Source of the DNA: Streptomyces hygroscopicus
Lineage (GTDB): Bacteria > Actinomycetota > Actinomycetes > Streptomycetales > Streptomycetaceae
Reading direction: 5' to 3'
DNA: 64,000 nt
NCBI GenBank assembly: GCA_002021875.1
Contig: CP018627.1
Span: 10,044,001-10,108,000 of the forward strand
The notes beneath the pieces are model-generated. The model made no database searches. It was not told where the DNA came from and worked only from the letters and a program-made list of their open reading frames with translations. This document shows, one piece after another, positions 2,022 to 60,283 of the stretch (position 1 is the stretch's first letter; every line of letters starts with the position of its first letter). The position numbers were made by a program, and so were the translations under genes.

Positions 2022-2054
2022 AAGGGGGCATAGGGGAGTGGTTAGGGGAGTGGG
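2022..2054 (+). promoter_or_regulatory. AGGGG repeat array upstream of gdmP
   Basis: In the 156-bp gap between gdmRI and gdmP lie three G-runs, each preceded by A: AAGGGGG at 2022 and TAGGGGAG at 2031 and 2043. The last two form a 12-bp tandem repeat. The array ends about 80 bp before the gdmP start, and the G-rich strand is the gdmP coding strand. The same element recurs before three other transcription units in this window, so I infer a regulator-binding site, most simply for one of the LAL activators. No clear -35/-10 pair is visible here. Confidence 0.45.
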
Positions 2055-2134
2055 GAGCGGGTGCGCGGACCAGACTTGTCCATCCGTAGGGCGGCGCAGT
2101 GGTGGCGACGAAGCGACGGACAGGACGGACAGGC

Positions 2135-3328
2135 ATGGACGAGATACGCGACTACCCCGAATCGCGGGCTGCTGCATGCCCGTTCTCACCCCCGCTGGGA
2201 TACGAGGAGTTGCGCGAGCGGTCCGCCGTCACGCGGGTGCGGATGTGGGATGGCAGCACCCCGTTTCTCGTCACCGGCTATCACGAGGCGCGGGCCGCGC
2301 TCGGCGACAGCAGGTTCAGCGCCGACGGCACGCACAAGGCGATGCCGCGCTTCGTGAAGTTCGAGGTGCCGGCCGAGGTGTTCAACCTCGGGAGGATGGA
2401 CGATCCGGAGCACGCCCGGATCCGCCGCATGCTCACCGCGAACTTCACCATCCGGCGCACCGAGGCGATGCGGCCGATGATCCAGGGCATCGTGGACGGC
2501 CTCCTGGACCGGCTGATCGCCCAGGGGCCGCCGGCCGACCTGGTGGCCGACTTCGCCTTCCCCCTGCCGTCCCAGGTGATCGGTGTGATGCTGGGGGTCT
2601 CGGACGCCGACTTCGCGGAGTTCCAGCAGGCGTCGCAGGGCGTCATGGACTTCACCGCGTCGGCCGAGGAGATGGGCGCCGCGCTCGGCGTCATGGTGGA
2701 CTACGTCGCCCGGATGTGCGCGGCCAAGCGCGCCGACCCGGGAGACGATCTCCTCAGCCGGCTCATCGTCGACCAGGAGCTGACGGGCGGGCTCACCCAG
2801 CAGCAGGTGGTCGCCACCGCCCTGGTGCTGCTGCTGGCCGGGCACGAGACCACCGCCAACATGATCGCCCTGTCCACCGTCCTGTTGCTGAGCCACCCCG
2901 AACAGCTCGCCCGGCTGCGGGCGGACGCCGGGCTGATGGGCAACGCGGTGGACGAACTGCTCCGGTACATCACGATCGTCCAGGAAGGCACGGGACGGGT
3001 GGCCACCGAGGACGTCGAGGTCGGCGGGGTGCTCATCCCGGGCGGTGAAGGGGTGATCATCAATCTGCCCAGCGCCAACCGCGACCCCCACTTCGCGGAC
3101 GCCCACGAACTGGACCTGAGCCGGCCGAACGCCCGCGAACATGTCGCGTTCGGCTTTGGAGTGCACCAGTGCCTGGGGCAGACCCTCGCCCGGGTCGAGC
3201 TCCAGATCGCCCTGGAGACCCTGCTGCGCCGGCTGCCGACGCTCCGCCTGGAGGTCCCGTTCGACGACCTGGCGTTTTTGTACGAGTCGATGAACTTCGG
3301 CGTCGCCCGTGTGCCCGTCGCCTGGTGA
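2135..3328 (+). CDS. gdmP: Cytochrome P450, post-PKS desaturase/oxidase
   Basis: Soluble bacterial class I P450 of 397 aa. The I-helix oxygen-binding motif AGHETT is at residues 235-240. The heme loop FGFGVHQCLG has the axial Cys at 346. A GTG at 2099 would add 12 residues. I prefer the ATG at 2135, which is preceded by a purine-rich GGACAGG and gives a normal N-terminus (MDEIRDYP). The gene is followed 39 bp later by a ferredoxin, its likely electron donor. In geldanamycin producers the P450 of this position (GdmP/Gel16) introduces the C4-C5 double bond. That fits the PKS here, whose module 6 carries DH and ER and would leave a 4,5-dihydro product. Family assignment is certain; the reaction is from known clusters. 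Confidence 0.93.
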   Translation: MDEIRDYPESRAAACPFSPPLGYEELRERSAVTRVRMWDGSTPFLVTGYHEARAALGDSRFSADGTHKAMPRFVKFEVPAEVFNLGRMDDPEHARIRRMLTANFTIRRTEAMRPMIQGIVDGLLDRLIAQGPPADLVADFAFPLPSQVIGVMLGVSDADFAEFQQASQGVMDFTASAEEMGAALGVMVDYVARMCAAKRADPGDDLLSRLIVDQELTGGLTQQQVVATALVLLLAGHETTANMIALSTVLLLSHPEQLARLRADAGLMGNAVDELLRYITIVQEGTGRVATEDVEVGGVLIPGGEGVIINLPSANRDPHFADAHELDLSRPNAREHVAFGFGVHQCLGQTLARVELQIALETLLRRLPTLRLEVPFDDLAFLYESMNFGVARVPVAW

Positions 3329-3367
3329 CCGCGGAACGGATGACAGAAGGATGATGAGGGGAACACG

Positions 3368-3565
3368 ATGGTGAAGGTCTCGGTGGATCAGGAGAAGTGC
3401 TGCGCGGCCGGGCATTGCGCGCTGGCGGCGCCGGAGGTTTTCGACCAGCGGGAGGAGGACGGGACAGTGGTCCTGCTGGACCCGCGGCCGCCGCTCGCGC
3501 TGCGCGACAGCGTCGCCGAGGCCTCGTTCCTGTGCCCGGCCGCCGCGATCGCGGTCGAGGACTGA
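3368..3565 (+). CDS. [3Fe-4S] ferredoxin
   Basis: Small 65-aa ferredoxin of the type paired with Streptomyces P450s. Cluster ligands visible are the N-terminal CCAAGHC (Cys11/12 and Cys17) and the C-terminal Cys in FLCPAAAI, with the usual APEVFDQ segment between. The start at ATG 3368 has a GAGGGG ribosome-binding site. It lies just downstream of gdmP in the same direction, so it most likely shuttles electrons from a ferredoxin reductase, not present in this window, to GdmP. Confidence 0.93.
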   Translation: MVKVSVDQEKCCAAGHCALAAPEVFDQREEDGTVVLLDPRPPLALRDSVAEASFLCPAAAIAVED

Positions 3566-3590
3566 AAAGGGCTCCGCACGCACCCGATTC

Positions 3591-3623
3591 CGGCCCCGGC
3601 GAGACGGCTTCTCGCCGGGGCCG
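3591..3623 (+). terminator. Strong hairpin between ferredoxin gene and gdmO
   Basis: A perfect 13-bp GC-rich stem (CGGCCCCGGCGAG paired with CTCGCCGGGGCCG), extendable by one A-T pair to a 5-nt loop, fills most of the 80-bp gap between the ferredoxin stop and the gdmO start. There is no obvious U-tract, which is usual in Streptomyces. It could end or attenuate the gdmP-ferredoxin transcript, or stabilise a processed mRNA end. Function is inferred. Confidence 0.6.
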
Positions 3624-3645
3624 CGCCAGCGATGGGAAAGCAGTC

Positions 3646-4710
3646 TTGACCACGTCGACTTCCAGTCCGGCCGCCAGTTCCGCTTCCCCCGCCCGACAGG
3701 TCGTCGTCGGGCTGGCCGAACGCTCCTACACCGTGCACATCGGACACGGTGTGCAGCGGCTGCTCCCACAGGTGGTGGCCGCCCTGGGCGCGCGCAGGGC
3801 GGTGGTGGTCACCGCGCGGCCCGCCGAGCAGACCCCCGACCCAGGAGTGCCCTCGCTCGTCGTACCCGCCCGCGACGGGGAGGCGGCCAAGGACCTGGCC
3901 GCCGTGACCGATCTGTGCCGCCGGTTCGTCGGATTCGGACTGACCCGCTCGGATGTGGTGGTGTCCTGTGGCGGCGGCACCACGACCGACACGGTGGGCC
4001 TGGCCGCCGCCCTCTACCACCGGGGCACCCCGGTCGTACACGTGCCGACCTCGCTGCTCGCCCAGGTGGACGCGAGCGTCGGCGGGAAGACCGCGGTGAA
4101 TCTGCCCGAGGGCAAGAATCTGGTCGGCGCCTACTGGCAGCCCGCGGCCGTGCTCTGCGACCTCGAACATCTGAAGACCCTGCCCGAACGGGAATGGCGC
4201 AACGGCCTCGGTGAGATCGCCCGCTGCCACTTCATCGGCGCGCCCGATCTCGACGGGCTGCCGCTGCTCGACCAGATCTCGGCCAGTGTGACGCTCAAGG
4301 CGGGCATCGTCGCCGCGGACGAGCGCGACTCGGGCCTGCGCCACCTCCTCAACTACGGACACACGTTGGGGCATGCGCTGGAACGTGCCACCGGGTTCGC
4401 GCTGCGGCACGGGGAGGGAGTGGCCATCGGCACGGTTTTCGCCGGCCGGCTCGCCGGCGCGCTGGGGCGCATCGGCCCGGAGCGCGTGGCCGAGCATCAT
4501 GACGTGGTCGCCCGCTACGGCCTGCCGACCGCGCTGCCCCCGCATGTCTCCGTGTCCGAGCTGGTGGAGCTGATGCGCCTGGACAAGAAGGCCACCGACG
4601 GGCTGACGTTCGTCCTGGATAGCCCCGCGGGGCCCGGACTGGTGCGCGGGATCGCCGAGGACACCGTCGGCGCCACCCTCGCGGCGATGCCCCGCGCGCC
4701 CGCATGGTGA
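3646..4710 (+). CDS. gdmO: 3-dehydroquinate synthase-like protein (aminoDHQ synthase) for AHBA supply
   Basis: 354-aa member of the dehydroquinate synthase family, RifG-like. In the aminoshikimate route this enzyme cyclises aminoDAHP to 5-amino-5-deoxy-3-dehydroquinate on the way to AHBA. NAD-binding GGGTTTDTVG and the VDASVGGKTAVN active-site block are present, as are the metal-ligand motifs LNYGHTLGHALE and HGEGVA. The frame is open upstream to 3397, overlapping the ferredoxin gene, but that extension is not protein-like. The TTG at 3646 is preceded by GGGAAAG at suitable distance and gives an N-terminus of family length. It is the only AHBA-pathway gene visible here. A primary-metabolism aroB role is less likely in this context. 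Confidence 0.9.
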   Translation: MTTSTSSPAASSASPARQVVVGLAERSYTVHIGHGVQRLLPQVVAALGARRAVVVTARPAEQTPDPGVPSLVVPARDGEAAKDLAAVTDLCRRFVGFGLTRSDVVVSCGGGTTTDTVGLAAALYHRGTPVVHVPTSLLAQVDASVGGKTAVNLPEGKNLVGAYWQPAAVLCDLEHLKTLPEREWRNGLGEIARCHFIGAPDLDGLPLLDQISASVTLKAGIVAADERDSGLRHLLNYGHTLGHALERATGFALRHGEGVAIGTVFAGRLAGALGRIGPERVAEHHDVVARYGLPTALPPHVSVSELVELMRLDKKATDGLTFVLDSPAGPGLVRGIAEDTVGATLAAMPRAPAW

Positions 4711-4756
4711 CGCGTCACGGTATCCGAGCCGCCTGGACGTTTCTCCGCATACGTTT

Positions 4757-4811
4757 TAGGGGCGCACGGACTCGATAGGGGGTTGACCGTGCGGCGCCCG
4801 CCACGGATAAC
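4757..4811 (+). promoter_or_regulatory. Candidate distal gdmRII promoter with TAGGGG sites
   Basis: Two TAGGGG elements (4757 and 4776, 19 bp apart) precede a sigma70-like pair: TTGACC at 4783-4788 and GATAAC at 4806-4811, spacer 17 bp. The second TAGGGG ends one base before the -35 box, the place expected for an activator that contacts sigma. The gdmRII start is at 4985, so the leader would be about 165 nt. Prediction only. Confidence 0.5.
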
Positions 4812-4851
4812 TGACGGCGCGATGAAGAGAACGAGATGTGGTGGCGCCGGT

Positions 4852-4906
4852 TAGGGGGCGGAGGTTCCGGTAGGGGTTGAGGCGGGCGGGGGCGTGCTGA
4901 TGGAAT
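4852..4906 (+). promoter_or_regulatory. Candidate proximal gdmRII promoter, same architecture as the distal one
   Basis: TAGGGG occurs at 4852 and again at 4871, once more 19 bp apart. The second copy abuts TTGAGG (4877-4882), with TGGAAT 18 bp further on (4901-4906) as a weak -10. The arrangement repeats the element 95 bp upstream. Together the pair looks like a duplicated, co-regulated promoter. Prediction only. Confidence 0.42.
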
Positions 4907-4984
4907 CGTGTCCCGATCAACAATTTGGTCTGACTCAAGGGCCGCGAGTCCGTATTCCGTCGACCTCGATCGGGGACCATCACC

Positions 4985-7765
4985 ATGCCCTACAGCTATG
5001 CCATGCCGTTGAATACCGAGTCGAATTCCCGTCCGATGGGCGGGGTATTGCATACCGCGGCGTACCTCGGACATCCATTCGGTGACTCTTTGGTGCGGCC
5101 CGGGCAGGCTCTTCTCGTGGACGGACCGCTGGCATGCGGGAAGACGACCCTGCTCCGGTCGTTCGCCGAGCGAGCCTCCGAGGCCGGCTATCTCACCGTC
5201 ACAGCGACGTGTTCCCCCAGCGAGCGGGACCTTCCCTTCGGGGTCGTCTCACAATTGGCCCGCGGCGCCTGGAAATCACCGGGCGGGCTGCCCGAGGTAC
5301 CGGGGCTGCCGGACATCCTCCGCGCGGCCGGCGATCCGCTGGACCAGGCCGGGATCGCCCGGCTGTGCCACCGGCTGTGCACCTCGCTGATCGACCACGC
5401 GGAACACACGCCGCTGCTCGTCGCCGTGGACGATGTCCGGCACAGCGACGCGGCCTCCGCACACTTCCTCCTGCAACTGGTGCGGCGCCTGGACTCGGCG
5501 CGCATCGCGGCCGTATTCACCGACGACTTGAGCCTGCCGTCGTCCCTGCCGCTCCGCTACGAACTGCTGCGCGCCCAGCACCTGCGCCGCATCGGCCTGG
5601 GCCCGCTCTCCCCCGGCCAGGTGGCCGAAGTGGTCGTGGCGGAGCTGGGGGAGACCGCGCGCCGCCACGTCGGCGACATCTGCGCCGCCACCGGTGGCAA
5701 CCGGCTGCTGCTGCACACTCTGCTGTCCGACTATCGCGAACACGGCGAGGCCAGCCAGGCCGGCTACGGCCAGTCCTTCCTGAGCTGCCTGCACCGCAAT
5801 GAGCCGATCTTCCTGGACGTGGTGCGCGCACTGGCCGTGGTGGGATCCGCCCTGCCCGCCGCCGACCTCGCCTGGATGACCGGACACGAGCCCGAGCCCA
5901 TCAGCCAGGTGCTCGCGGCGCTGACCGGGGCCGGACTGATGGACGAGGGCGAGTTCCGGCAGGAGGCGGCGCGGTTGAGCGTGCTCAACGACATGCCGGC
6001 ACAGGCCCGCAGGACCCTGCACCAGCGGGCCGCGCGGCTGCTGCACGACCAGGGCAGGCCCGCCACCGCGATCGCCCGTCATCTGGTGCGGGCCGGGCAG
6101 ATCCCCGACTCGTGGTCGGCCGAGGTGCTTCTGGAAGTGGCCGAGCAGGTGGCGGTGGGCGAAGAGGCGTCCATCGCCGTCGACTTACTGGAGCAGTCCT
6201 TCGAGCAATGCCCGCACGAAGAGCGCCGTGCAGCCCTGCAGGCGAAGCTCGCCGGGGCGGAATGGAAGATCAATCCGTCCACCGCCACGCGGCACCACGC
6301 ACCGCTGTACGCCGCCGTCCGCGCCGGCCGGCTCGGCCTCCCCGACAGCGTCACCCTGCTCATGCAGCTCCTGTGGAAGGGGGGACTGAGCGAGGTGGAG
6401 GGGCTGCTCGCCCACCTGCGCGAGGACCCCGCGGCCACGGACCAGCTCCATGCCATCGAGGCGGCACTCACCTGCACCTATCCCTGGCTGGCGGAGCGGC
6501 GGGCGGCCCCGGCACACCACGGTGGCTCCGCGGCGACACGGGCGGCGGTGTGGCCCCGGGCCGGCACCGTCCTGGCCGACGTGCTCACCGGCGGGCAGAC
6601 CCATGACACCGTCCGGCGGGCCGAGGAGGTGCTGCGCGAACTGCAGCTCGGGCACGACCCGGCATGCCACGAGCAGGCGGGGCTGTTCGCCCTGCTCGCC
6701 CTGGTCTACGGCGGCCGGAACGACCTGGCGTCCGCCTGGTGCGAGGGTGCGCTCGGCGAGACCGGTGGGGGACCGCACGTCCCGATGCGGCAGGCGGTGC
6801 TGTCGGCGGCCAGGTCCGAGATCGCACTGCGCCGCGGTGACCTCGCCGAGGCCGCGGAGCAGTCCCGCGCCGCCCTCACCCACGCCTCCCCCGGCGCCTG
6901 GGGTGTCGCGATCGGGCTGCCGCTCGGCGCCCTCATCCTGGCGTGTACGCGGATGGGGCGGCACGAGGAGGCGGGGTTCCATGTCGCGCAGACCGTGCCC
7001 AACGCCATGTTCAAAAGCTCCTACGGGCTGCACTACCTGTACGCGCGCGGCCACTACTTCCTGGCGGCCGGCCGGCACCAGGCCGCGCTCGCGGACTTCC
7101 TGCTGTGCGGTGAACTGCTCACCGACTGGGGGCTGAGCAGCGGCTGCGACCCGGTGCCGTGGCGGATCGGGGCGGCGGAGGCATGGCTGGCGCAGGGCAA
7201 CCACGACCAGGCCCGGATCCTGGTGTACCAGCAGCTCAGCCGTCCGCACACGGACGGCGCCCGGGCCCGCGGGCAGTCGTTGCGTCTTCTGGCGGCCACC
7301 AGTTCGGCGAAGCGGCGGCCGCAGTTGCTCAACGAGGCGGTGGGCCTGTTCACCGAGCAGGAGGACAAGTACGAGCTGGCCCGCACGCTGTGGGACCTCA
7401 GCCAGGCGTACCACGCGCTCGGTGAGAAGAAGCAGGCCCGCCGGACCATGCGCCGGGCCTGGCATGTGGCGAAGATGTGCGACGCGGCGTCGCTGTACGA
7501 GGAGTGGCTGCCGGCCGACGACCAGCACCATGCCACCGCACCAACGCCGAAGTCGGACACCGCGATCGAGCGGCTGACGCACTCCGAACGGCGTGTCGCG
7601 TCGCTGGCCGCGATGGGCTACACCAACCGGGAGATCGCCGGGAAGCTGTACGTCACGGCCAGCACGGTGGAGCAGCATCTGACCCGGGTGTTCCGCAAGC
7701 TGGACATCAAGCACCGGGAGCAACTGCCCACCGAACTGTACGTCGACCGGCCGGAGTTGGCGTGA
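4985..7765 (+). CDS. gdmRII: LuxR-family LAL transcriptional activator, complete
   Basis: 926-aa LAL regulator and likely pathway activator. The N-terminal AAA-type ATPase has Walker A GPLACGKTT at residues 47-55 and a Walker B-like LLVAVDD near 147. A long helical repeat region follows, and the C-terminus carries a LuxR HTH (about 860-915, with TNREIAGKL and STVEQHLTR). It is paralogous to the LAL gene at the left edge. One TTA codon (6185-6187, Leu401) suggests bldA control of translation. Its own upstream region carries four TAGGGG elements and two candidate promoters, so autoregulation or control by the other LAL is plausible. It converges on gdmG, with a strong hairpin between them. Confidence 0.94.
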   Translation: MPYSYAMPLNTESNSRPMGGVLHTAAYLGHPFGDSLVRPGQALLVDGPLACGKTTLLRSFAERASEAGYLTVTATCSPSERDLPFGVVSQLARGAWKSPGGLPEVPGLPDILRAAGDPLDQAGIARLCHRLCTSLIDHAEHTPLLVAVDDVRHSDAASAHFLLQLVRRLDSARIAAVFTDDLSLPSSLPLRYELLRAQHLRRIGLGPLSPGQVAEVVVAELGETARRHVGDICAATGGNRLLLHTLLSDYREHGEASQAGYGQSFLSCLHRNEPIFLDVVRALAVVGSALPAADLAWMTGHEPEPISQVLAALTGAGLMDEGEFRQEAARLSVLNDMPAQARRTLHQRAARLLHDQGRPATAIARHLVRAGQIPDSWSAEVLLEVAEQVAVGEEASIAVDLLEQSFEQCPHEERRAALQAKLAGAEWKINPSTATRHHAPLYAAVRAGRLGLPDSVTLLMQLLWKGGLSEVEGLLAHLREDPAATDQLHAIEAALTCTYPWLAERRAAPAHHGGSAATRAAVWPRAGTVLADVLTGGQTHDTVRRAEEVLRELQLGHDPACHEQAGLFALLALVYGGRNDLASAWCEGALGETGGGPHVPMRQAVLSAARSEIALRRGDLAEAAEQSRAALTHASPGAWGVAIGLPLGALILACTRMGRHEEAGFHVAQTVPNAMFKSSYGLHYLYARGHYFLAAGRHQAALADFLLCGELLTDWGLSSGCDPVPWRIGAAEAWLAQGNHDQARILVYQQLSRPHTDGARARGQSLRLLAATSSAKRRPQLLNEAVGLFTEQEDKYELARTLWDLSQAYHALGEKKQARRTMRRAWHVAKMCDAASLYEEWLPADDQHHATAPTPKSDTAIERLTHSERRVASLAAMGYTNREIAGKLYVTASTVEQHLTRVFRKLDIKHREQLPTELYVDRPELA

Positions 7766-7800
7766 CCGCGGCGCGGCGCGCCTGACAGCGGAGCCGCGCG

Positions 7801-7839
7801 GACGGCCATGTCCCGGGAGACCCCCGGAACATGGCCGTC
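7801..7839. terminator. Bidirectional terminator between gdmRII and gdmG
   Basis: A near-perfect inverted repeat: GACGGCCATGT at 7801-7811 pairs with ACATGGCCGTC at 7829-7839, and the stem continues after one C-A mismatch with CCGGG/CCCGG to a 5-nt loop. It sits in the 124-bp gap between two convergent genes, so it can stop transcription from both sides. Confidence 0.8.
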
Positions 7840-7886
7840 AGACGTTCAGACGTTCAGACGCTCAGCCGCGCAGACGCTCAGCCGCG
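7839..7886. repeat. 8-bp tandem repeat tract after the gdmRII/gdmG hairpin
   Basis: Six consecutive 8-bp units of the form AGACGTTC / AGACGCTC / AGCCGCGC fill the space between the hairpin and the gdmG stop codon. Units 1 and 2 are identical, and units 3-4 are repeated almost exactly as units 5-6. It looks like replication slippage. No function is evident. Confidence 0.6.
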
Positions 7887-7889
7887 GAC

Positions 7890-8546: not shown

Positions 8547-8671
8547 TGGATTTCCGCACCCCGCAAAGCTGAAAAGGGAAGGTTCAGGGAAAGGCAATGC
8601 GGCCCATGCTAAGAATCCGTCGATGCGCCGCGCAATGGCGTCTTCCAGAATGCTGGAACTCATATTCCGGC

Positions 8672-8702
8672 TGAGGGGGGTATAGGGGGGATCCTTAGGG
8701 GA
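8672..8702 (+). promoter_or_regulatory. AGGGG repeat array in the gdmG/gdmK divergent region
   Basis: Three G-runs, TGAGGGGGG, TATAGGGGGG and TTAGGGG, have their A residues at 8674, 8684 and 8697 (steps of 10 and 13 bp). They lie 90-115 bp before gdmK with the G-rich strand as the gdmK coding strand. The spacing resembles the arrays before gdmP and gdmA1. I infer an activator site serving gdmK and perhaps also divergent gdmG. Confidence 0.45.
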
Positions 8703-8789
8703 TTTGGGTGACCGCCCGGAGAATACCGTGAACGCGGAAGCGCGTGTCATGGTCGGCACGTTGTTCACAACGCGCTGCGGAGGCGATTG

Positions 8790-9656: not shown

Positions 9657-9928
9657 CCATCTCATCCGAGCCGGGCAGCCACACCGCCGAGACGGTGGCG
9701 CAGGAGGTGCAGCAGTTCCTCGAACAGCGCACCAAGCAGACCTGGGACCCGGACACCGACCTGTTCGGCACCGGCGCCGTGTCCTCGATGTTCGCCATGG
9801 AGCTGGTCGTGCACCTGGAGTCGACCTTCGACGTGGTGATCACCGGCCCCGACCTGGCGCTGGACAACTTCCGCACGGTCAACGCGATGACCACGATGGT
9901 CCTGCGGCTGCGCGGGGCACAGCCGTGA
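9653..9928 (+). CDS. gdmJ: Discrete acyl carrier protein for methoxymalonyl
   Basis: 91-aa ACP of the FkbJ type that carries the glyceryl-derived extender while GdmH, K, I and G build it, then delivers it to the AT domains of modules 2 and 5. The phosphopantetheine site is in GTGAVSSMFAMEL, probably Ser45, where the family has SSM/SSL instead of the DSL of PKS ACPs. The GTG start overlaps the gdmK stop, and the gene's own stop overlaps the gdmI GTG by 4 bp, so three genes are coupled. Confidence 0.92.
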   Translation: MTISSEPGSHTAETVAQEVQQFLEQRTKQTWDPDTDLFGTGAVSSMFAMELVVHLESTFDVVITGPDLALDNFRTVNAMTTMVLRLRGAQP

Positions 9929-12146: not shown

Positions 12147-12207
12147 CCGGCGGGCGTCTTCCGCCCCGCATCCTCGCGTTCGCCTCCGACTGGTTTGGGT
12201 GATCACT

Positions 12208-54500: not shown

Positions 54501-57500
54501 TGATGCCGTCGAGTACGTCTTGTAGCTGGTTTTTGATGGTGTCGACGTGTCCGGTGTGGGAGGCGTAGTCGACGGGGATGATGCGGGCTCTGGTGCCCTG
54601 GTCGGTGTAGTGGGTGTGGAGTTGGTGCAGGGCGTCGGTGTCGCCTGCGATGACGGTGGCGTTGGGGCTGTTGTGTGCGGCGATCCAGAGTTTGCCGTGC
54701 CAGTTGGTGAGGTCGATGGTGTCGGCGGGGGTGGCGAGGGACATCATGCCGCCGTGTCCGGCGAGGTGGTGGGCGATGGTCTGGCTGCGGAGGGTGACGA
54801 TTTTGGCGGCGTTGGTGAGGGTGAGGTGTCCGGCGACGCAGGCGGCGGCGATTTCGCCTTGGGAGTGGCCGATGACGGCGTCGGGGTGGATGCCCACGGA
54901 TTGCCAGAGTGCGGCGAGGGAGACGACGACGGCGAAGGTGGCGGGCTGTACGACGTCGACACGCTCAAGCGAGGGAGCGTCGGGCGTGCCGGTGATGACG
55001 TCGATGAGCGACCAGTCGGTATACGGCGCTAGAGCATCGGCGCACTCACGCAGGCGGGCGGCGAAGACGGGTGAGGTGTTGAGGAGTTGGGCTCCCATGC
55101 CCACCCATTGGGCGCCTTGGCCGGGGAAGATGAACACGGTTTTGCCGTCTGTTCCGGTCTGTCCGGTGACCAGGAGCGGGTCAGGCCGCCCCTCCGCCAG
55201 AGCCCGCGCCGTCGCCATGCCTCCTTCGGCATCCGTCGCCAGGATGACCGCGCGGTGCTCCAACGCCGCCCGGGTGGTGGCCAGCGACCAGCCCACATCG
55301 ACCGGGTTGGCGTCGCTCCCGGACTCCAGATGGCTGACCAGACGCTCTGCCTGAGCGCGCAGCGCCGCAGGAGTCTTGGCGGACAGCACCCACGGCACTA
55401 CGCCGCCCGTGGCCACGAGCCCAGGAGCGCCCGCGTCGCTCGCCTGTGTTTCGGGTGCAGCCGCTTCCAGGGGTGCCTGTTCCAGGACCACGTGTGCGTT
55501 CGTCCCGCTGACGCCGAAGGAGGAGATTCCGGCGCGGCGGGGGTGTCCCGTCTCCGGCCAGGGCCGGGCCTCGGACAGTAGCGACACCGCACCTGACGTC
55601 CAGTCGACCTTGCTGGTGGGCTCGTCGGCGTGGAGGGTTTTGGGCAGTACGCCGTGCCGCATGGCCTGGACCATCTTGATGACACCGGCCGCGCCCGCCG
55701 CCGCCTGCGCATGCCCGATGTTCGACTTCAACGACCCCAGCCACAGCGGCTGATCCTCCGGCCGCTCCTGCCCGTAGGTGGCCAGGAGTGCCTGGGCCTC
55801 GATCGGGTCGCCGAGACTCGTGCCCGTGCCGTGGGCCTCGACCGCGTCCACATCGGCCACCGTCAGCCCGGCGTTCGCCAGCGCCTGCCGGATCACCCGT
55901 TCCTGGGACGGGCCGTTGGGCGCGGTCAGGCCGTTGCTGGCGCCGTCCTGGTTCACGGCGGTGCCACGGACGACGGCGAGCACCTCATGCCCATTGCGGC
56001 GGGCATCGGACAGCCGCTCCAGCAACACCAACCCGACACCCTCGGACCAGTTGGTGCCGTCGGCGCCCTCCGCGAAGGACTTGCAGCGGCCGTCGGGGGC
56101 GAGGCCACGCTGGCGGGAGAACTCGATGAACGACGTCGGCCTGCTCATCACCGCGACACCCCCGGCGAGCGCCAGCGAGCATTCGCCCGTGCGCACCGCC
56201 TGAACCGCCAGGTGCAGCGCTACCAGGGAGGACGAGCAGGCGGTGTCCACGGTCACCGCGGGCCCGGTCAGGCCCAGCGCGTAGGCCACCCGCCCGGAGA
56301 CGACGCTCCCCGCGCTGCCCACGCCGAGATGCCCCTCCAGGCCCTCCGCCGCCGTCCCGGCGTCGGCCCCGTAATCGTGGTACATCACTCCGCTGAACAC
56401 ACCGACGTCGGTGCCGTGCAGCGAACCCGGGTCGATTCCGGCATTCTCGAAGGTCTCCCACGCGGTCTCCAGCAGCAACCGCTGCTGCGGGTCCATCGCC
56501 AGCGCCTCACGGGGCGAGATGCCGAAGAATGCGGCGTCGAATCCGCCCGCGTCGGTGAGGAAACCGCCCTCGCGCACATAGGACTTGCCCACGGCGTCCG
56601 GGTCGGAGTCGAAGAGCCCGGCCAGGTCCCAGCCCCGGTCCTCCGGGAACCCGGCGATCGCGTCCCGCCCGTCGGCCACCAACCGCCACAGGTCCTCGGG
56701 CGTCGCGACCTCGCCCGGCAGGTGGCAGCCCATCGCCACGATCGCCACCGGCTCGTCGGACACGCCGCGCGCTCGCACCGGCGCCTGCACGCCGCGCCTC
56801 CCGGTGATCTCCCGCACCAGATGCCGCGCCAGCCCGGCAGGGGTCGGATGGTCGAAGACCACCGTGGCGGCGAGCCGTGCCCCGGTGGCCGCGTTCAGCC
56901 GGTTCCTCAACGCGACCGCGGTCAGTGAGGTGAAGCCGAACGCGCTGAATGCCTGGCCGGCCTCGACCGGGTCGGCCGAGGCCAGCCCCAACGTCGCCGC
57001 GGCGTGCTCGCGCACCAGCGCCAGCGCCATGCGCTGTCGGCCGGACTCGCTCTCGGCGGCCAGCCGCCGCCGGAACTCCGCGACGGCGGGTTCGTCCGAC
57101 GCCGGTACGCCGGACGGCGCGTCCACCAGATGACGCAGCACCGCGGGCACCGGCTCGCCACCCGGCAGCCCCGTCGTGCTCGGCCTGAGCAGCACGAGCG
57201 GCCCCTGACCAGCCGTCAGCGCCGCGTCGAACAGGGCCAGCGCCTCGGGCAGGGGAACGGCACCGGCCACCGGCGCCGTGCCATGCTCGCCCGGCAGCGG
57301 GCCCCAGGCCAGAGCCAGCCCGCCAAGGCCAAGCGCCCGGCGCCGCCGCACCAGGGCTTCGCCGAACTGGTCGGCGGCCGCCCGGTCCGGGCGGCCAGGC
57401 GAGCCCAGCACCCCGGCGGCGGAGGTGACGACGACGAACAGTGCCGGGGCGGCCCCCCGGGTCCGTTCTTCCAGGTGTGTCATGGCGCGCAGCGACGTGT

Positions 57501-60060
57501 CGAGCGACCGTTCCGGGCTCGGCTCCTCGATGTGTACGGCAGCGGTCACCGGCCGGGCCTGTGCGTCCAGCACCGAGTCCAGCGCCGTCCGGTCGGCCGG
57601 GTCGCATACGGCCATCGAGACCTGGGCCCCGTCCCGCGCCAACTCGGTCCGCAACGTGGCCGCCGCCTCTTCCGGCAGGCCATTCGCGCTGAGCAGCAGC
57701 AGGTTACGGGCGCCGTACGCGGTCACCAGATGGCGGGCCAGCGCGGTGCCGCGGGTGGTGTCGCCACCGGTGATCACGACCAGTCCGCCCGCGTCCAGGG
57801 TTGGGGCGGGCCCCGGCTCCGCGGGGAACGAGATCCGGGTCAGGCGCGGGACCAGCAGTACTCCGCCACGGATCGCCGCCTGGTCGTGCCCGCCCTGGAC
57901 GGCCCGCAACAGCGCGGCCTCCCGACCGTCCTCCCCGGCCCCGTCCCCGGCCCTGTCCCCGGCCCCGTCCAGGTCCACGTCCACCAGCGTCAGTCGGCCG
58001 GGGTAGGCGGCCTGCAGCGAGCGCACCACACCCCACAGCGCGGCCGACAGCGGCTCCGGTGCGTCCTCCTCGGCGCCGGTGGCCACCGCGCCCGTGGTGG
58101 CCACCACGAACGTCGTCCCGGCCAGCCGGTCGTCGGCCAGCCAGGCGCCAAGGCGGGCCGCCAGCCGGTCGGCGCGCTCGCCAACCGTGACCCCGGCCTC
58201 GTCAGGGGCCCCGGTCTCATCCGGGAGGCCCGCCACCGGAGGCGTCACCACGACCACATCCGGGGCCGCACCGTCATCTCCAGCGAGATCGGCCACGGAG
58301 CCTGCCACAAGACCGGCCACGGAGTCGGCCACCGGCTCGCCCACCGGCTCGCCCACCACCCGCGCGTCCACTCCGGCCGCCCGCAGCCCCACCGCGAGCC
58401 CGAGCGCGTCGGCGTCCGCCAGTGCCCAGGTACCGGTCCCGGCCGGGGCGTCCGGCAGCGCGGACTGCGGCACCCAATCCAGCCGCAGCAGCGAGTCGTA
58501 CTGGCCGTCTCCGGCGGCCCGCAGCCGTGCGGGCAGCTCCAGCAGTACGTGCCGGGTGATCTTCCCCGAGGCGGTGCGTGGCACCCGCGCGATCTCGTAG
58601 ATCTCCTCCGGGACCTTGAAGTACGACAGCCGCTCGCGACACGTGGCCAGCAGCGCCGACGGGTCGAAGCCGTCCGGGCCGGGCACCACGAAGGCCACCG
58701 GAACCTCGCCGAGCACCGCATGCGGCTTGCCCACCACGGCCGCGTCCGCCACACCGGGCACGGTGCGCAGCACGGCCTCGACCTCACCGGGGTGGATGTT
58801 CTCCCCGGCCCGGATGACGAGTTCCTTGATCCGGCCGGTCACCGTGCAGAATCCGGCCTCGTCGCGGCGGCCGAGGTCCCCGGTGCGGTACCAGCCGTCG
58901 CGCAGCGCCGAGGCCGTCGCCTCCGGCTGGTTGTGGTACCCGGCCATGATGTTCGGCCCGGACACCCAGAACTCGCCTTCCCGCCCGGCCGGAACGTCGA
59001 CACCGGTGTCCGGGTCCACCAGCCGCACCGTCAGCCCCGGCACCGGCAGCCCGCACGACCCCTCGACCCGCGGGCCGGTTGGCCAGTTCACCGCGATCGC
59101 GCCACAGGTCTCGGTGGAGCCGTAGGCGTCGACGAGTGGCACTCCGAAGGCGGACTCGAACGACCTGACCAGGTCCGCCGTGGCCACCGCCCCGCCCACG
59201 AGCGCGATCCGCAGCTCGGGCGTGGCGAAGTCGCGCTCGCGGGCCGCCTCGATCAGGTGGTGGTAGAGCGTCGGCACTCCGGCGATGAAGGTCGACCGCT
59301 CCTCGCGCAGTGCGTCCAGCACATCGGCCGTCGACACCCCGTCCACGATCCGGGTGCTGGCCCCGACGGCGGTGGCCGCCAGCAGACACACGATGTGCGA
59401 AAGGCTGTGGAACAGCGGCAGCGGCCACAGCACGCGGTCCTCGGCGGTCAGCCCCGTCACCGGCACGTAGCAGGCGGCCAGGGACCACAGGCAGTTCCGC
59501 TGTGTGGACAGCACGCCTTTCGGCAGGCCCGTGGTGCCCGAGGTGTAGAGCATCCAGGTGATTTCGTCCAGGCCCAGGTCGTCGCGGGCTGCCAGCTGCG
59601 GCTCCGTGTCCGGCAGCGGCTCGAACGCGATGAAGCCCTTCGGCAGCGGGCCGTCCCCGCTGACCACCACCCTCAGCTCCGGGAACTGTTCCCGCAGCCG
59701 GCCGAACTGGTCGGCGTGGGCGACATCGGTGAGCACCAGCCGGGCGCCGCTGTCGGCGAGCAGATAGGAGAGTTCCGCATCGGTCGAACGCGGGTTGACC
59801 GGCACCGCCACGCCGTTCGCCCGCAGGACGCCGAAGTAACTCTCCACCATCTCGACGCGGTTGCCCAGGCAGATCATGGCGCGGTCGCCGGGGTGCAGCC
59901 GCAGCCCGGCGAGATGACCGGCCAGCCGCCGGGTACGGCGTTCGAGTTCGGCATGGCTGACCGTGCGGTGTCCGTCGGAACAGGCCGGCTTGTCACCGAA
60001 GCGATCCGCGTTGGCCCGGAGCAGTTCGGGCACCGGCCGGATCAGGTCAGTCCGTAGCAT
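39532..60060 (-). CDS. gdmA1: Type I PKS: AHBA-loading module plus extension modules 1-3
   Basis: 6842-aa first PKS. Loading part: acyl-AMP ligase (YTSGTTGLPKG about 173, YRTGDLG, ASGKITRH about 500) for AHBA, a degenerate KR-like domain (about 515-990), ACP (Ser1045 in FTSL). Module 1: KS about 1275, AT about 1732 (YASH, methylmalonyl), DH about 2039, ER about 2620, KR about 2804, ACP about 3112. Module 2: KS about 3342, AT about 3802 (FAGH, methoxymalonyl class), DH about 4114, ER about 4684, KR about 4868, ACP about 5168. Module 3: KS about 5414, AT about 5870 (YASH), KR about 6407 (A-type, no DH), ACP about 6719, then a docking tail. This predicts full reduction at C15 and C13 and the 11-hydroxyl, exactly the progeldanamycin pattern. 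First gene of the minus-strand operon. Confidence 0.97.
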   Translation of the reverse strand: MLRTDLIRPVPELLRANADRFGDKPACSDGHRTVSHAELERRTRRLAGHLAGLRLHPGDRAMICLGNRVEMVESYFGVLRANGVAVPVNPRSTDAELSYLLADSGARLVLTDVAHADQFGRLREQFPELRVVVSGDGPLPKGFIAFEPLPDTEPQLAARDDLGLDEITWMLYTSGTTGLPKGVLSTQRNCLWSLAACYVPVTGLTAEDRVLWPLPLFHSLSHIVCLLAATAVGASTRIVDGVSTADVLDALREERSTFIAGVPTLYHHLIEAARERDFATPELRIALVGGAVATADLVRSFESAFGVPLVDAYGSTETCGAIAVNWPTGPRVEGSCGLPVPGLTVRLVDPDTGVDVPAGREGEFWVSGPNIMAGYHNQPEATASALRDGWYRTGDLGRRDEAGFCTVTGRIKELVIRAGENIHPGEVEAVLRTVPGVADAAVVGKPHAVLGEVPVAFVVPGPDGFDPSALLATCRERLSYFKVPEEIYEIARVPRTASGKITRHVLLELPARLRAAGDGQYDSLLRLDWVPQSALPDAPAGTGTWALADADALGLAVGLRAAGVDARVVGEPVGEPVADSVAGLVAGSVADLAGDDGAAPDVVVVTPPVAGLPDETGAPDEAGVTVGERADRLAARLGAWLADDRLAGTTFVVATTGAVATGAEEDAPEPLSAALWGVVRSLQAAYPGRLTLVDVDLDGAGDRAGDGAGEDGREAALLRAVQGGHDQAAIRGGVLLVPRLTRISFPAEPGPAPTLDAGGLVVITGGDTTRGTALARHLVTAYGARNLLLLSANGLPEEAAATLRTELARDGAQVSMAVCDPADRTALDSVLDAQARPVTAAVHIEEPSPERSLDTSLRAMTHLEERTRGAAPALFVVVTSAAGVLGSPGRPDRAAADQFGEALVRRRRALGLGGLALAWGPLPGEHGTAPVAGAVPLPEALALFDAALTAGQGPLVLLRPSTTGLPGGEPVPAVLRHLVDAPSGVPASDEPAVAEFRRRLAAESESGRQRMALALVREHAAATLGLASADPVEAGQAFSAFGFTSLTAVALRNRLNAATGARLAATVVFDHPTPAGLARHLVREITGRRGVQAPVRARGVSDEPVAIVAMGCHLPGEVATPEDLWRLVADGRDAIAGFPEDRGWDLAGLFDSDPDAVGKSYVREGGFLTDAGGFDAAFFGISPREALAMDPQQRLLLETAWETFENAGIDPGSLHGTDVGVFSGVMYHDYGADAGTAAEGLEGHLGVGSAGSVVSGRVAYALGLTGPAVTVDTACSSSLVALHLAVQAVRTGECSLALAGGVAVMSRPTSFIEFSRQRGLAPDGRCKSFAEGADGTNWSEGVGLVLLERLSDARRNGHEVLAVVRGTAVNQDGASNGLTAPNGPSQERVIRQALANAGLTVADVDAVEAHGTGTSLGDPIEAQALLATYGQERPEDQPLWLGSLKSNIGHAQAAAGAAGVIKMVQAMRHGVLPKTLHADEPTSKVDWTSGAVSLLSEARPWPETGHPRRAGISSFGVSGTNAHVVLEQAPLEAAAPETQASDAGAPGLVATGGVVPWVLSAKTPAALRAQAERLVSHLESGSDANPVDVGWSLATTRAALEHRAVILATDAEGGMATARALAEGRPDPLLVTGQTGTDGKTVFIFPGQGAQWVGMGAQLLNTSPVFAARLRECADALAPYTDWSLIDVITGTPDAPSLERVDVVQPATFAVVVSLAALWQSVGIHPDAVIGHSQGEIAAACVAGHLTLTNAAKIVTLRSQTIAHHLAGHGGMMSLATPADTIDLTNWHGKLWIAAHNSPNATVIAGDTDALHQLHTHYTDQGTRARIIPVDYASHTGHVDTIKNQLQDVLDGITLEPGTIPWLSTVTGQWIEPNTVGDSYWYRNLRQTVQFEHTIHTLADQGYRTYIEISPHPVLTTAIQETLEANDTPNTTIVTGTLRRDDDTPTRLLTNLAHLTTNGTPVNWPTLFTGTQPTRIPLPTYPFQHHHYWLPRNTSAGDVSAVGLQGTGHPLAGAVVSVPDTGGVLLTGQLSVATHPWLADHAVSGTVLLPGTAMAELAIRAGDETDTPTLEELVIGQPMTLPEDGALHVQVLVGGVEDGRRGVRIYSRPDAAQEQEWLEHASGTLATQPDGSAEGGMENGMPEWPPPGVEPIALDDFYDDLAQAGYEYGPAFRGLKAVWKRDGEVFAEAALPEEQTDVAGRFGIHPALLDAALHASNFCVPPAPGQTLLPFVWNGVRLLAAGATAVRVRARATGTDSFTISLFDSTGSPVASVDSLVLRAISPEQLAAASGGAGRSADALFTLDWTEHPTALGTEVSWATLGDAHTDVDAHVDALIAGEDRPGAVVADTAAWAAGDTGLPARARDLAARALDLVQRWVGRPELADVRLVLLTRGAVSVHDTAEVTDPAAAAIWGLVRSAQSEHPGRIALVDTDDVSREALPEAVAAGEPQVALRRGLLWVPRLVRSPQGLAVPAHEHWYLDVSEKGSLENLVLRPDPEATAPLATGQVRIEVRAAGQNFRDVLVALGGVAGQEGLGGEGAGVVTEVGPGVEGLAVGDRVMGLFPRSFGPLAIADARTVAPIPEGWSYATAAGVPVAYLTALYGLRDLGTVQPGETVLVHAAAGGVGMAAVQLARHFGATVYATAHPSKHHVLTALGVPEGHLASSRDLGFASAFPALDVVLNSLTGEYVDASLGLLGTGGRFVEMGKNDIRDPASVAAAHPGVGYQAFDLGGDAGPDRIRELLAELVELFEAGRIEPLPIRHWDVTQAPTAFRWMSQGRHTGKIVLTLPRALDPDGTVLITGGTGTLGATIARHVVTHHGARQLLLISRQGPDAPGATDLTTELTELGATVRITACDTADRDQLAALLADIPAAHPLTAVIHTAGALDDGVLTALTPDRLDTVFRPKVDAVTHLHDLTRDQDLAAFVIYSSAAGTLGNAGQANYAAANAFLDAFAQWRHARHRPATSLAWGLWSDTSTLTSTMDATDVRRTRRAGVLGMDNAEALRVFDTGLRSGRPALVAAKIDLTALRAPDAELSPLLRGLARPARRTARTAAPAAGGLSGQLAGLSPAGQREFLLNLVRAEAAVVLAHAGPEAIEPTVAFKEMGFDSLTAVELRNRLNAATGLRLPATLLFDHPTPALLTELFHTELGGGPAPAAAAPVTVRAAADEPIAVVAMSCRLPGGVTDPDGLWNLLLEERDGIADFPRDRGWDLEALFDADPDRSGTSYVLRGGFLEDAAGFDADFFGISPREALAMDPQQRLFLEACWEVFERAGMDPTTVGGGDIGVFAGVINQDYGVRSGPAPEDLEGYMLTGSATSVASGRVAYVLGLEGPAVTVDTACSSSLVAMHWAVQALRQGECSMALAGGATVMGRPSAFVEFSRQRGLAPDGLCKAFGAGADGTTFSEGVGVLLLERLSDARRNGHEVLAVIRGTAVNQDGASNGLTAPNGPSQQRVIRQALANAGLSATDIDAVEAHGTGTALGDPIEAQALLATYGQDRPGDEPVWLGSLKSNTGHTLAAAGVSSVIKMVLAMRHGTLPRSLYADEPTPEVDWSQGAVSLLTEARPWPETSHPRRAGISSFGISGTNAHLILEQAPQSETEPEAAPKADGGMDTPGLVATGGSVPWVLSAKTPTALRAQAQRLLDHLESGVTDRPLDIGWSLATTRTLHDHRAIILTDTEGGDATAALTALATGQPHPRLTTGHATTHGKTVFVFPGQGAQWQGMGAQLLDTSPVFATRLHECADALAPYTDWNLIDVITGAPHAPSLDRVDVLQPTTFAIMVSLAALWQANGIHPDAVIGHSQGEIAAAHIAGHLTLTDAAKIVALRSQTIAHHLTGHGAMMSVLASHTWVQEALAPWHGHLWIAAVNGPASVSVSGDPDALAEFGVTLSKAKVYRWQLPGVDFAGHSGHVDTIKDQLHHVLDGVTASPGTVAWMSTVDADWANPTHIDAHYWYRNLRDTVRFEEATRALLTHGHRVFIEISTHPVLTTAIQDTTETLPEVRATITGTLRRDDGGPDRVLTSLAELSTAGIPVHWPTAYAGTTPSQVPLPTYPFQHQHYWLAATGHHGDVGSVGLRDAAHPLLGAVVSVPDTGGVLLTGRLAPSAQSWLADHMLSGVALVPGTAIVELAVRAGDETGTPVLEELVLGQPMLLPEDGSLQVQVLVGAAEDDERRAVRVYSRGDESEPWVEHASGILSAHALVPVEAERQWPPTGAEPVVLEGFYDRLAQAGYEYGPVFRGLTAAWTRGDDVFAEITLGEDQHDLAGRFGIHPALLDAALHASNFCPGNEPGGGTYLPFSWNGVQLHADGATALRVRVTSTGPDNLSLHATDPHGVPVVTVGSLVLRETTAEQLRTTSATSAADSQFTVEWTEHPLARDEVAWAALEAVQDDDTWPPVVVADTRAFAAQGGGLPDEGGLQEDGELPERARELTGRALAAIQRLISDDALADSRLTLLTRGGMAVHDDTEVTDPAAAAVWGLVRAAQAEHPGRVCVIDIDDRSAEALTAALATEEPQLALRGGTAWVPRLVRARPGLAVPAAVAWHLDVTEHGTLENLALVPHPRAEAPLEAGQVRIAVRAAGQNFRDVLIALGMYEAEIGTEGAGVVTEVGPGVADLTVGDRVMGMLPGSFGPLVVADRRTVVRMPRGWSFTAAAGVPVAYLTALYALRDLGDVQPGETVLVHAAAGGVGMAAVHLAHHFGATVLATAHPAKHHSLEQLGVPTERRASSRDLAYARTFPTADIVLNSLTGEHIDASLGLLAPGGRFIEMGRTDIRDVDEVRASHPDRTYRAFDLGADAGPDRIQELLAELVDLFEQGLIPPLPTRPWEITRAPDAFRWMSQGRHTGKIVLTLPRIPDPEGTVLITGGTGTLGTAITRHLVTHHGVRNLVLASRQGPNALGAADLHDELTALGAQVRITACDIADRGQLAALLADIPSDHPLTGIVHTAGALADGTLTTLDPDRIDTVFRPKVDAVTHLHDLTRDQDLALFAVYSSAAGILGNAGQANYAAANTFLDAFVQRRRAAGLAGLSLAWGLWAETSDLSAALITANRDRTQHGVVRPMATEHALSLFDSALGLGLSLVVPAKLDPGAHESAAGAVPPLLTGLLRPTRRTLRSTAGQSGEGGLTARLAALSEADQHRLLLDLVRDHTATVLGHAGKDAVDARRAFSEIGVDSLIAVELRNRLAGATGLRLPATVVFDYATPEAMAGHLRSVVAGDTAAPASPSTSAVAPASAVAPADDPVAIVSMNCRLPGKVTGPGELWDLVSQGRDAIGPFPTDRGWDVETLFDLDPDAVGKSYVREGGFLTGAGDFDAEFFGISPREALAMDPQQRLLAETSWELFERAGIDPVSVRGQAIGVFAGVIDQGYIAHSEAPPPELEGYLMTGSTTSVASGRVAYLLGLEGPAVTVDTACSSSLVALHLAVQALRAGECSMAITGGVTVIAKPGGFISFSRQRGLAPDGRSKSFSEGADGTTFSEGIGLVLLERLSDARRNGHEVLAVIRGTAVNQDGASNGLTAPNGPSQQRVIRQALANAGLTVADVDAVEAHGTGTALGDPIEAQALLATYGQDRPGDEPLWLGSLKSNIGHTQAAAGIAGLIKMVLAIRQGTLPRSLHAGEPTTKVDWTSGAVSLLSEARPWPETGHPRRAGISSFGISGTNAHVILEQGPEVAVPATEARDAGAPGLVATGGVVPWALSAKSPAALRAQAERLVSHLESGDAPRAVDVGWTLATTRAALEHRAVILATDTEDGIATARALAEGRPDPLLVTGQTGTDGKTVFVFPGQGAQWVGMGAQLLNTSPVFAARLNECAEALAPYTDWSLMDVITGAPGAPSLERVDVVQPATFAVVVSLAALWQSVGIHPDAVIGHSQGEIAAACVAGHLTLTNAAKIVTLRSQTIAHHLAGHGGMMSVLASREQVEEALTPWHGKLWIAAHNSPNATVIAGDTDALHQLHTHYTDQGIRARVIPVDYASHTGHVDTIKNQLHQTLADTTTEPGTIPWLSTVTGQWIEPDTVDSGYWYRNLRQTVQFHTAITALAHEGYRTFIEISPHPVLTTAIQETLEANDTPNTTITGTLRRDDDTPTRFLTHLAHLTTHGHTPDWTALYSATHPRPTPLPTYAFQHHHYWLTPSEVPEAVADGVFWDAVERGDLASLADSLGVEEKTLEPVLPGLTSWRRRNQDQSTVDTWSYRIAWDPVATGEAPVLPGAWLVAVASPQASDAAVTDVVAALAAHGADPVVVEVDTVEQAEVTARLRERISDSDDEYAGVVSLLAWDERSYEPGTLSRGVAATVALIQAVEEIGLAAPLWCLTRGAVAVREPSEVTSEFQPLAWGMGVVQGLDQPSTWGGIVDLPRTPDETALVRLCSVLAGVDAEDQVAVRASGVFARRMRREPVTSAPAWQPRDTVLITGGTGGLGSYVGRWAAGHGARRVVLLSRQGAQAPGAAELEAELSALGADVTIAACDVTDRDQLAAVLAEIPDDAPLSGVVHAAGLALPEKPLSKMTLAEFADIGQAKIAGARHLDDLLGERELDAFVLFSSGAAAWGSGGQSAYAAGNAYLDGLAQRRRARGLAATSVAWGAWGGGLGTIDEMMGAQWRRTGLMTMDPRLAALAMAHTVGSGTAHGVVADIDWERFAPGYTMARFRPLLRGLPDVIDLLTEDAPEDSAGQTELIARLAGLSPEDQERLLTELVQAEAAAVLGHVSADATGDRPFSEIGFDSLTAVELRNRLNASTGLRLPATMVFDHPRPSVLARRIRTELGHTDTSSVDSVLAELERLEAHLAALPKEKIERARITSRLQRMTTKVAEIEAVGTGGDTVTERLDTANADDVFAFIDQEFGVD

Positions 60061-60182
60061 GCCGCCACACCTCTCGGTTCGAAGCAGGGCGCGCGGGAGG
60101 AGCGACCGACCCGCGCGGGATCGCCCCTTGCGCGGGACAGCCGCGCTCCGGTTGCGCGGCCCAAGGGAAAGAAGGCCCGGGA

Positions 60183-60213
60183 GAGAAAGCTCGAACGAGC
60201 TTGAGAAAGCTCG
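60183..60213 (-). repeat. Direct and inverted repeats in the gdmA1 leader
   Basis: GAGAAAGCTCG occurs at 60183-60193 and again at 60203-60213, exactly 20 bp apart (two helical turns). The first copy also forms an inverted repeat, AAGCTCG-AA-CGAGCTT (60187-60202). It lies about 125-155 bp before the gdmA1 start. It could be a protein-binding site or a small hairpin in the leader RNA. Confidence 0.5.
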
Positions 60214-60255
60214 CTGCTGTTGTTGTGATTCTTGTTCCGGCAGCGAGCGGGCCGT

Positions 60256-60283
60256 CCCCTAAACATCCCCCTCATTCCCCCTG
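60256..60283 (-). promoter_or_regulatory. AGGGG repeat array upstream of gdmA1
   Basis: Read on the minus strand, three G-runs preceded by A occur, with the A positions at 60282, 60272 and 60260 (steps 10 and 12 bp). The G-rich strand is the gdmA1 coding strand, and the array lies about 200 bp before its start. Form and spacing parallel the arrays before gdmK and gdmP. Confidence 0.45.

Follow-up and report, generated by a model that had tools for sequence, protein, structure and literature searches.

TAGGGG direct repeats as predicted LAL operators in the geldanamycin cluster of Streptomyces hygroscopicus

The stretch of Streptomyces hygroscopicus DNA analysed here, referred to as the window (64,000 nucleotides, G000:C1:10044001-10108000, from a 12.0 Mb genome in a single contig), holds gene families that match the geldanamycin (gdm) cluster; the families were checked, and the gene names come from an earlier sequence-only reading of the same DNA and from the literature. 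Short arrays of the box TAGGGG precede four transcription units in the window, those led by gdmP, gdmRII, gdmK and the polyketide synthase (PKS) gene gdmA1. Each array is very probably an activating operator for the LAL (large ATP-binding LuxR-type) regulators of the cluster, GdmRI and/or GdmRII. The presence, non-random placement, orientation and conservation of the arrays, the promoter layout at some of them and the association of the box with LALs whose recognition helix reads STVEQHL come directly from the computation, and the placement, the conservation and the association with GdmR-type LALs support the operator prediction.

Placement and orientation of the arrays

Three of the arrays consist of three boxes. 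Before gdmP, which encodes a P450, AAGGGG, TAGGGG and TAGGGG follow one another in steps of 9 and 12 bp on the plus strand (2022..2048; the A of each AGGGG at 2023, 2032 and 2044), and before gdmK the plus strand carries GAGGGG, TAGGGG and TAGGGG in steps of 10 and 13 (8673..8701; A at 8674, 8684 and 8697). The array before gdmA1 lies on the minus strand (60256..60283; A at 60282, 60272 and 60260), where CAGGGG, GAGGGG and TAGGGG are spaced by 10 and 12. The sequence-only reading had placed arrays before these genes and gdmRII at coordinates that proved correct, and had described the gdmP, gdmK and gdmA1 arrays as three copies with steps of about 10 and then 12, which holds within 1 bp. As a correction, gdmRII carries not the three-copy form but two pairs with a step of 19, each TAGGGG-N13-TAGGGG and each seen both in the sequence and in the alignment, at 4757..4781 (P1) and 4852..4876 (P2) on the plus strand (A at 4758/4777 and 4853/4872). 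Start codons lie 91-227 bp from the arrays when gdmP is taken to begin at ATG 2135, in agreement with the earlier figure of about 80-230 bp; if GTG 2099 is used instead, the gdmP array is 55-76 bp from the start. Gene calls are those of our own codon-usage caller, and the gap edges are therefore approximate.

AGGGG occurs 123 times in the window (77 on the plus and 46 on the minus strand), and chains of at least three copies on one strand with steps of 8-22 are confined, in the 64 kb, to the gdmP, gdmK and gdmA1 arrays. TAGGGG is not over-represented window-wide (11 against 12.5 expected), yet nine of the eleven copies fall in the four gaps, so that their position and not their number is unusual. 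All nine stand on the coding strand of the downstream gene and none on the opposite strand, as the sequence-only reading had claimed. Dinucleotide shuffles of the four gaps yield a mean of 0.40 and a maximum of 4 such copies, with none of 5000 reaching nine and none of 5000 placing a TAGGGG in all four gaps.

Conservation and promoter layout

Most boxes are kept in the seven to nine sequences aligned for each gap, and conservation in orthologous clusters is thus largely borne out. Pooled over the four gaps, 75 of 90 columns in NAGGGG boxes are invariant as against 507 of 943 elsewhere (p 2e-8; NAGGGG outside the arrays was also scored as box). The contrast is strongest for gdmRII, where 24 of 24 box columns are invariant in eight sequences compared with 127 of 250 columns elsewhere in the gap. 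The corresponding values are 15/18 against 146/225 for gdmK (eight sequences, with L066 two bases shorter there), 17/24 against 67/132 for gdmP and 19/24 against 167/336 for gdmA1, whose three boxes are all present in 9/9 sequences. The gdmP boxes are kept in seven aligned sequences, the window included, except that the middle box of L065 reads CAGGGG; L062 was excluded from this alignment because of a contig edge and is absent from that of gdmA1. Upstream of gdmA1 the stretch common to all nine sequences starts at the array: similarity is lost immediately ahead of it in L194 and L195, extends for some 40 bp further in the remaining seven, and gives way beyond that to mostly unrelated DNA.

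The last box adjoins a predicted promoter most clearly before gdmRII. The predicted promoter of P1 (4783..4811, plus strand) has its -35 element TTGACC (4783-4788) starting one base past the second box and, after 17 bp, the -10 element GATAAC (4806-4811), giving the order TAGGGGG TTGACC -17 bp- GATAAC. The predicted promoter of P2 (4877..4906, plus strand) has its -35 element TTGAGG (4877-4882) fused to the second box and, after 18 bp, the -10-like TGGAAT (4901-4906), giving TAGGGG TTGAGG -18 bp- TGGAAT. TAGGGGGTTGACC of P1 is invariant in the eight aligned sequences, while the 13-bp spacer of the P1 pair varies, and TAGGGGTTGA and CTGATGGAATCGT of P2 are likewise invariant in eight. Read in this way, gdmRII would possess a tandem arrangement of two operator-promoter units offset by 95 bp. 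For gdmK, the alignment suggests a candidate -10 element, TACCGT (8724..8729, plus strand), 28 bp past the start of the last box; the form TANNNT is present in 8/8 aligned sequences despite varying inner letters. Judged from sequence, the adjacency of box and promoter in the window is clear for both gdmRII units, likely for gdmK, weak for gdmA1 and unseen for gdmP.

Autoregulation of gdmRI was considered and rejected, as the two TAGGGG copies 600-700 bp before that gene (L079:8486 and 8540) fall outside the conserved set: among seven aligned sequences, our own included, the first is kept in five and the second in two. Around gdmA1, L195 has a second upstream array facing the opposite way, CCCCCTAAACATCCCCCTGGCTCCCCCTGACC on the gdmA1 coding strand, as though some divergent gene were served by an operator copy of its own. 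In the relatives L201 and L202, a paralogous PKS gene whose start shares 61% identity with GdmA1 is preceded by two TAGGGG boxes at a step of 11 bp, about 160-175 bp ahead of the matched start; no TAGGGG pair is present in L196-L200, which are closer paralogues.

Association of the box with STVEQHL LALs

The two putative cognate LALs are encoded inside the same cluster as the arrays. GdmRII (926 aa; 4985..7765, plus strand, from the open reading frame and a domain match) ends in a LuxR/GerE-type helix-turn-helix (HTH), about residues 862-914, that matches solved response-regulator domains including those of VraR, NarL and GerE. Its recognition-helix codons, STVEQHLTR, lie at 7661..7687 on the plus strand, and those of GdmRI, whose gene starts before the window, were located from the sequence and the protein tail at 1862..1888 on the same strand. 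The two helices are identical, and sequence therefore cannot tell which of the two proteins binds.

GdmRII-like LALs (E up to 1e-60) are found in 66 of 150 Streptomyces genomes, and 60 loci of other Streptomyces were taken around such LALs, leaving out our own genome and the gdm orthologues. TAGGGG is the top of 1681 hexamers in the gaps of these loci (N runs set aside), with 163 copies against 25 in a background drawn from this genome only, the test loci being from other species; the counts vary slightly with the gap-edge rule, to 163 or 176 in the test loci and 25, 32 or 36 in the background. The enrichment ratio is 5.5 for TAGGGG, compared with 1.37 for GGGGG and 1.47 for AGGGG. Pairs of TAGGGG within 60 bp comprise 52 on the same strand, 13 divergent and 7 convergent (52 against 20, p 2e-4), and where a gap serves a single promoter, 71 copies have the orientation of the gene and 21 the opposite one (p 2e-7; 8 and 8 in the background), both p values treating loci as independent although several hold closely similar LALs (such as L129/L131, L144/L148 and L158/L160/L163, and outside the genus L214/L215, L218/L219 and L230/L232/L234). 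Divergent gaps hold a further 80 copies and convergent gaps 4. Among same-strand pairs, the commonest steps are 9-13 bp (23 of 52) and 20-24 bp (14 of 52).

The 106 sites formed by the last box before a gene show the same layout in outline. GGGG recurs 10 bp upstream, T is favoured at +6 and +7, and A+T rises at +29 to +31 and at +34/+35. TTG begins at +6 in 19 of the 106 sites (mean 0.95 per position), and 23 sites have TANNNT at +29/+30 (0.61 for the average position), so that each element is present in only about one-fifth; a loose pattern with both promoter elements fits 20. That a minority of sites has a recognisable promoter at a fixed distance is what is expected of activated promoters.

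The association extends beyond the genus. In 25 loci that come from four further families of the same class, TAGGGG is first of 1200 hexamers, with 32 copies in 28 kb compared with 29 in the 129 kb of background, and an exact pair 8-25 bp apart occurs in only one of these loci. Ten other genomes have both an LAL and a complete list of arrays; 23 of their 85 TAGGGG pairs lie within 10 kb of a GdmR-type LAL, where 0.45 would be expected. Ten of these 23 belong to G096, a relative that shares the gdm cluster, and without it the count is 13 of 69. An exact string, TAGGGGGAATCCTAGGGG, recurs in several Streptomyces genomes, on G022:C190, G033:C9, G033:C29, G073:C373, G114:C264, G115:C2 and G141:C2, and our survey of GdmR-type LALs lists none on those contigs.

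The letters STVEQHL are present in 60/60 test LALs, in all 25 non-Streptomyces loci and in none of 19 LALs of other type. Control LALs with other helices (RTVEMHL, RAVEKHL and similar) gave nine stretches, one from our own genome and eight from 35 places, and in their 17.4 kb of gaps TAGGGG occurs four times, never as a pair and at about background level, which speaks against the rejected idea that any LAL brings the box with it. This pairing of box and helix is what one would expect if the helix reads the box directly. The breadth of this rule and its tie to STVEQHL were not found in the open-access literature searched, which is a weak negative.

Within this genome, TAGGGG reaches 2.2-2.5 per kb of gap at the LALs at 1.89 Mb and 5.39 Mb and in the gdm cluster, 0.71 at the LAL at 5.23 Mb, and 0.26-0.30 in 40 other stretches, which were 20 kb each and set at chosen round coordinates instead of being drawn at random. 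Eleven arrays fall in the LAL regions and none in the 129 kb of gaps of those 40 stretches, a comparison that upholds the arrays against genomic background as well. Of the 17 TAGGGG pairs genome-wide, 13 are found no more than 25 kb from one of the three PKS clusters that carry a GdmR-type LAL. Ten PKS clusters with at least five ketosynthase (KS) domains were compared, from 150 of 195 KS candidates scored, so that the list may be incomplete; the seven without a GdmR-type LAL (5-20 KS) have no TAGGGG pair. On these pair-free clusters, the idea that the arrays merely mark PKS clusters was rejected.

Proposed activation, its alternatives and its relation to known systems

In the mechanism we propose, an LAL oligomer would set its C-terminal HTH domains onto TAGGGG boxes repeated in the same direction at intervals of about 9-13 or 19-22 bp. 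Such intervals equal one or two turns of the helix and would leave the copies facing approximately the same side of the DNA. The last box would adjoin the -35 element of an ordinary sigma-70/HrdB-like promoter, and the regulator would contact RNA polymerase and offset the weakness of that promoter. The binding itself, the form of the oligomer, the dependence on ATP and the contact with polymerase are all inferred. The four arrays would switch on gdmP, gdmRII, the genes from gdmK to gdmN, and gdmA1-A2-A3 with the genes that follow (gdmF- and gdmM-like). In the window, the plus-strand order is the end of gdmRI, gdmP, a dehydroquinate-synthase-like gene and gdmRII, then genes for an O-methyltransferase, a 3-hydroxyacyl-CoA dehydrogenase (gdmK) and a carbamoyltransferase (gdmN); the minus strand holds three large PKS genes followed by those for an acetyltransferase-fold protein and an FAD-binding protein. 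The array before gdmRII would create a cascade from GdmRI to gdmRII to the remaining genes.

Published knock-outs bear on this scheme. In strain JCM4427, gel14 and the PKS genes require gel17 and gel19; gelA, gel8 (carbamoyltransferase) and gel16 (P450) in turn require gel14, whose loss leaves gel17 normal (as retold in PMC6784220). From gene order and Pfam, gel14 appears to be gdmRII, gel17 gdmRI, gel8 gdmN and gel16 gdmP. Given those equivalences, the four reported targets are the four array units, with gel8/gdmN in the gene run after gdmK, and the lack of a gel17 effect on loss of gel14 fits the absence of a conserved array before gdmRI. The coordinated control of PKS, regulator and tailoring genes that the sequence-only reading had proposed is matched by the JCM4427 targets and contradicted in part by strain 17997, described below.

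Several observations weigh against an LAL operator. In strain 17997, inactivation of gdmRI or gdmRII is reported to leave post-PKS genes unaffected, and the two regulators are reported not to control each other's expression (PMC6784220). The -10 element GATAAC of gdmRII P1 is kept in six of eight sequences, with GATATC in L063 and GAAATG in L065; no clear -10 is seen for gdmP, and that of gdmA1 is a weak AAGAAT. TAGGGG is missing from the gaps of 10 of the 60 Streptomyces LAL loci (one of which has just 358 bp of gap) and of 10 of the 25 non-Streptomyces loci, and three of the ten other genomes have no TAGGGG pair near an LAL. Genome-wide, the pair occurs 17 times, less often than its reversed control, which occurs 29 times. 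Two related activators have sites of another form: the MalT-like site of Actinoplanes sp. SE50/110 is an inverted repeat, TCATCC-5-GGATGA (PMC7567727), and the predicted site of FkbN, the LAL of the tacrolimus cluster, consists of two 7-nt inverted repeats resembling that of PimM (PMC6022917), as opposed to the direct repeats of the gdm arrays.

It is unlikely that the arrays belong to a regulator of another kind, be it a SARP, the TetR-type GdmRIII, PhoP or a PAS-LuxR protein of the PimM type. PimM recognises CTVGGGAWWTCCCBAG, an inverted repeat, whereas TAGGGG pairs are mostly on one strand, and palindromes of this type number three in the window at three mismatches (3.5 by chance) with none at the arrays. 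A SARP would be attractive in terms of geometry, its operators being heptamers repeated in one direction every 11 bp, as a rule across the -35 element (PMC3367932). The gdm arrays resemble these heptamers in having direct repeats about one turn apart and, at some of the arrays, a predicted -35 element beside them, and differ from them in sequence and in the protein family concerned. Loss of GdmRIII lowers the expression of gdm genes (PMC5500506), and its published site, ATNGAGGAC (PMC6627628), is commoner in the window than expected when up to one mismatch is allowed (62 against 35.3). However, no match at that threshold falls within the arrays, the nearest (4962-4977) lying beyond them, and in electrophoretic mobility shift assays GdmRIII is reported on gdmM and gdmN and not on gdmA1, gdmK, gdmP or gdmRII (PMC5500506). 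The copies of the GdmRIII motif in the window are mostly within genes, perhaps through codon usage. A comparison of unit sequences shows the published S. hygroscopicus PHO unit, GTTCACCCGCC, to be unlike TAGGGG. Against all such regulators, TAGGGG follows the LAL type across genomes and families and is at background level near LALs with other helices.

Still less probable is that the G runs act as DNA structure, a G-quadruplex or similar, that affects promoter opening. The gdmP region does cluster at least four G runs on the coding strand, but each gdmRII pair has only two, and the enrichment, in terms of k-mer ratios only, is specific to TAGGGG (5.5) and not to G runs (1.37 and 1.47). The T and A are moreover conserved in most boxes, some of which stand at a fixed distance from -35 and -10 elements. 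A chance feature of G-rich intergenic DNA would accord with the window count of TAGGGG and the genome-wide excess of the reversed control, but is very unlikely, to the point of being negligible, given the conservation, the LAL association, the 5000 shuffles and the 129 kb of other gaps without an array.

MalT carries a C-terminal LuxR-type HTH and is thought to contact RNA polymerase at its boxes in E. coli, thereby offsetting a weak promoter. The predicted LAL operators of the gdm cluster may work like the MalT box, to judge by analogy, yet they differ from it in core sequence. The G-rich gdm box occurs as direct repeats, and what is shared with MalT boxes, whose E. coli/Klebsiella consensus is GGGGA(T/G)GAGG, is an arrangement of repeated G-rich boxes, which at part of the sites lie at a predicted -35 element as MalT boxes do, together with a presumed ATP-dependent activator (PMC7567727). 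The core is TAGGGG and not GGA(T/G)GA, the genes belong to polyketide clusters, and no sugar inducer is known. Nearer in taxonomy, the MalT-like activator of Actinoplanes sp. SE50/110 serves an actinomycete through a conserved site that overlaps the -35 element at 17 starts (PMC7567727). FkbN binds several fkb promoters (PMC6022917). SCO6993, an S. coelicolor LAL with footprinted sites, shares the LuxR-type HTH and the ATP motif, and differs in its 606 aa, its role as a repressor and its sites, which are short unlike palindromes (PMC9628970). On these likenesses we provisionally file the gdm arrays among LAL operators, a known kind. The operator of NemR in the nemadectin cluster is said to have been described by Li et al. 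in 2019, reportedly with the consensus TGGGGTGKATAGGGGGTA. This would presumably hold TGGGG and TAGGGG 9 bp apart, which we take to be the same element.

A broader and more tentative proposal, which we hold at somewhat below even chances, is that TAGGGG repeats at -35 are the operator code of all actinomycete STVEQHL LALs, allowing cross-activation between PKS clusters and of stray targets. As recognition helix and box would be common to them, the LALs of separate polyketide clusters within a cell could switch on one another's clusters. A spacing code, in which each LAL has its own box step, was rejected, agreement within clusters being no better than shuffled (1156/5000 strict, 2655/5000 loose); as box steps do not separate clusters, specificity would be left to the protein level or to co-factors. 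If box and promoter layout can be read off the sequence, they would predict LAL-controlled transcription units, show which units of a silent cluster would answer LAL overexpression, supply parts for promoter building, and open the disagreement between the two geldanamycin knock-out studies to direct testing.

Four genomic pairs lie away from the three LAL-bearing PKS clusters. Two of them, which overlap each other, sit at the 3′ end of a gene at 0.73 Mb; a third, at 3.17 Mb, overlaps a SpoIIE-like gene at its stop codon; and the fourth is found at 1.69 Mb. This fourth pair (L078:7256-7281; G000:C1 about 1692256-1692281), with a step of 20, precedes a type II thioesterase gene. A PKS block lacking a GdmR-type LAL is 28 kb away and a lone KS 20 kb away; an identical pair is found in the relative G096, and the thioesterase gene is a possible stray LAL target. 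Elsewhere on the contig, G000:C1 5.228-5.388 Mb (L072, L073, L077 and L082-L084) holds a 27-KS block with a GdmR-type LAL at each end (5.23 and 5.39 Mb). Beyond the gdmA1 promoter, window positions 60691-63444 include a SnoaL-like gene identified by Pfam, a minus-strand reading frame of 501 aa and a plus-strand frame of 217 aa, the latter two resembling, by eye only, an FAD monooxygenase and a TetR regulator, respectively.

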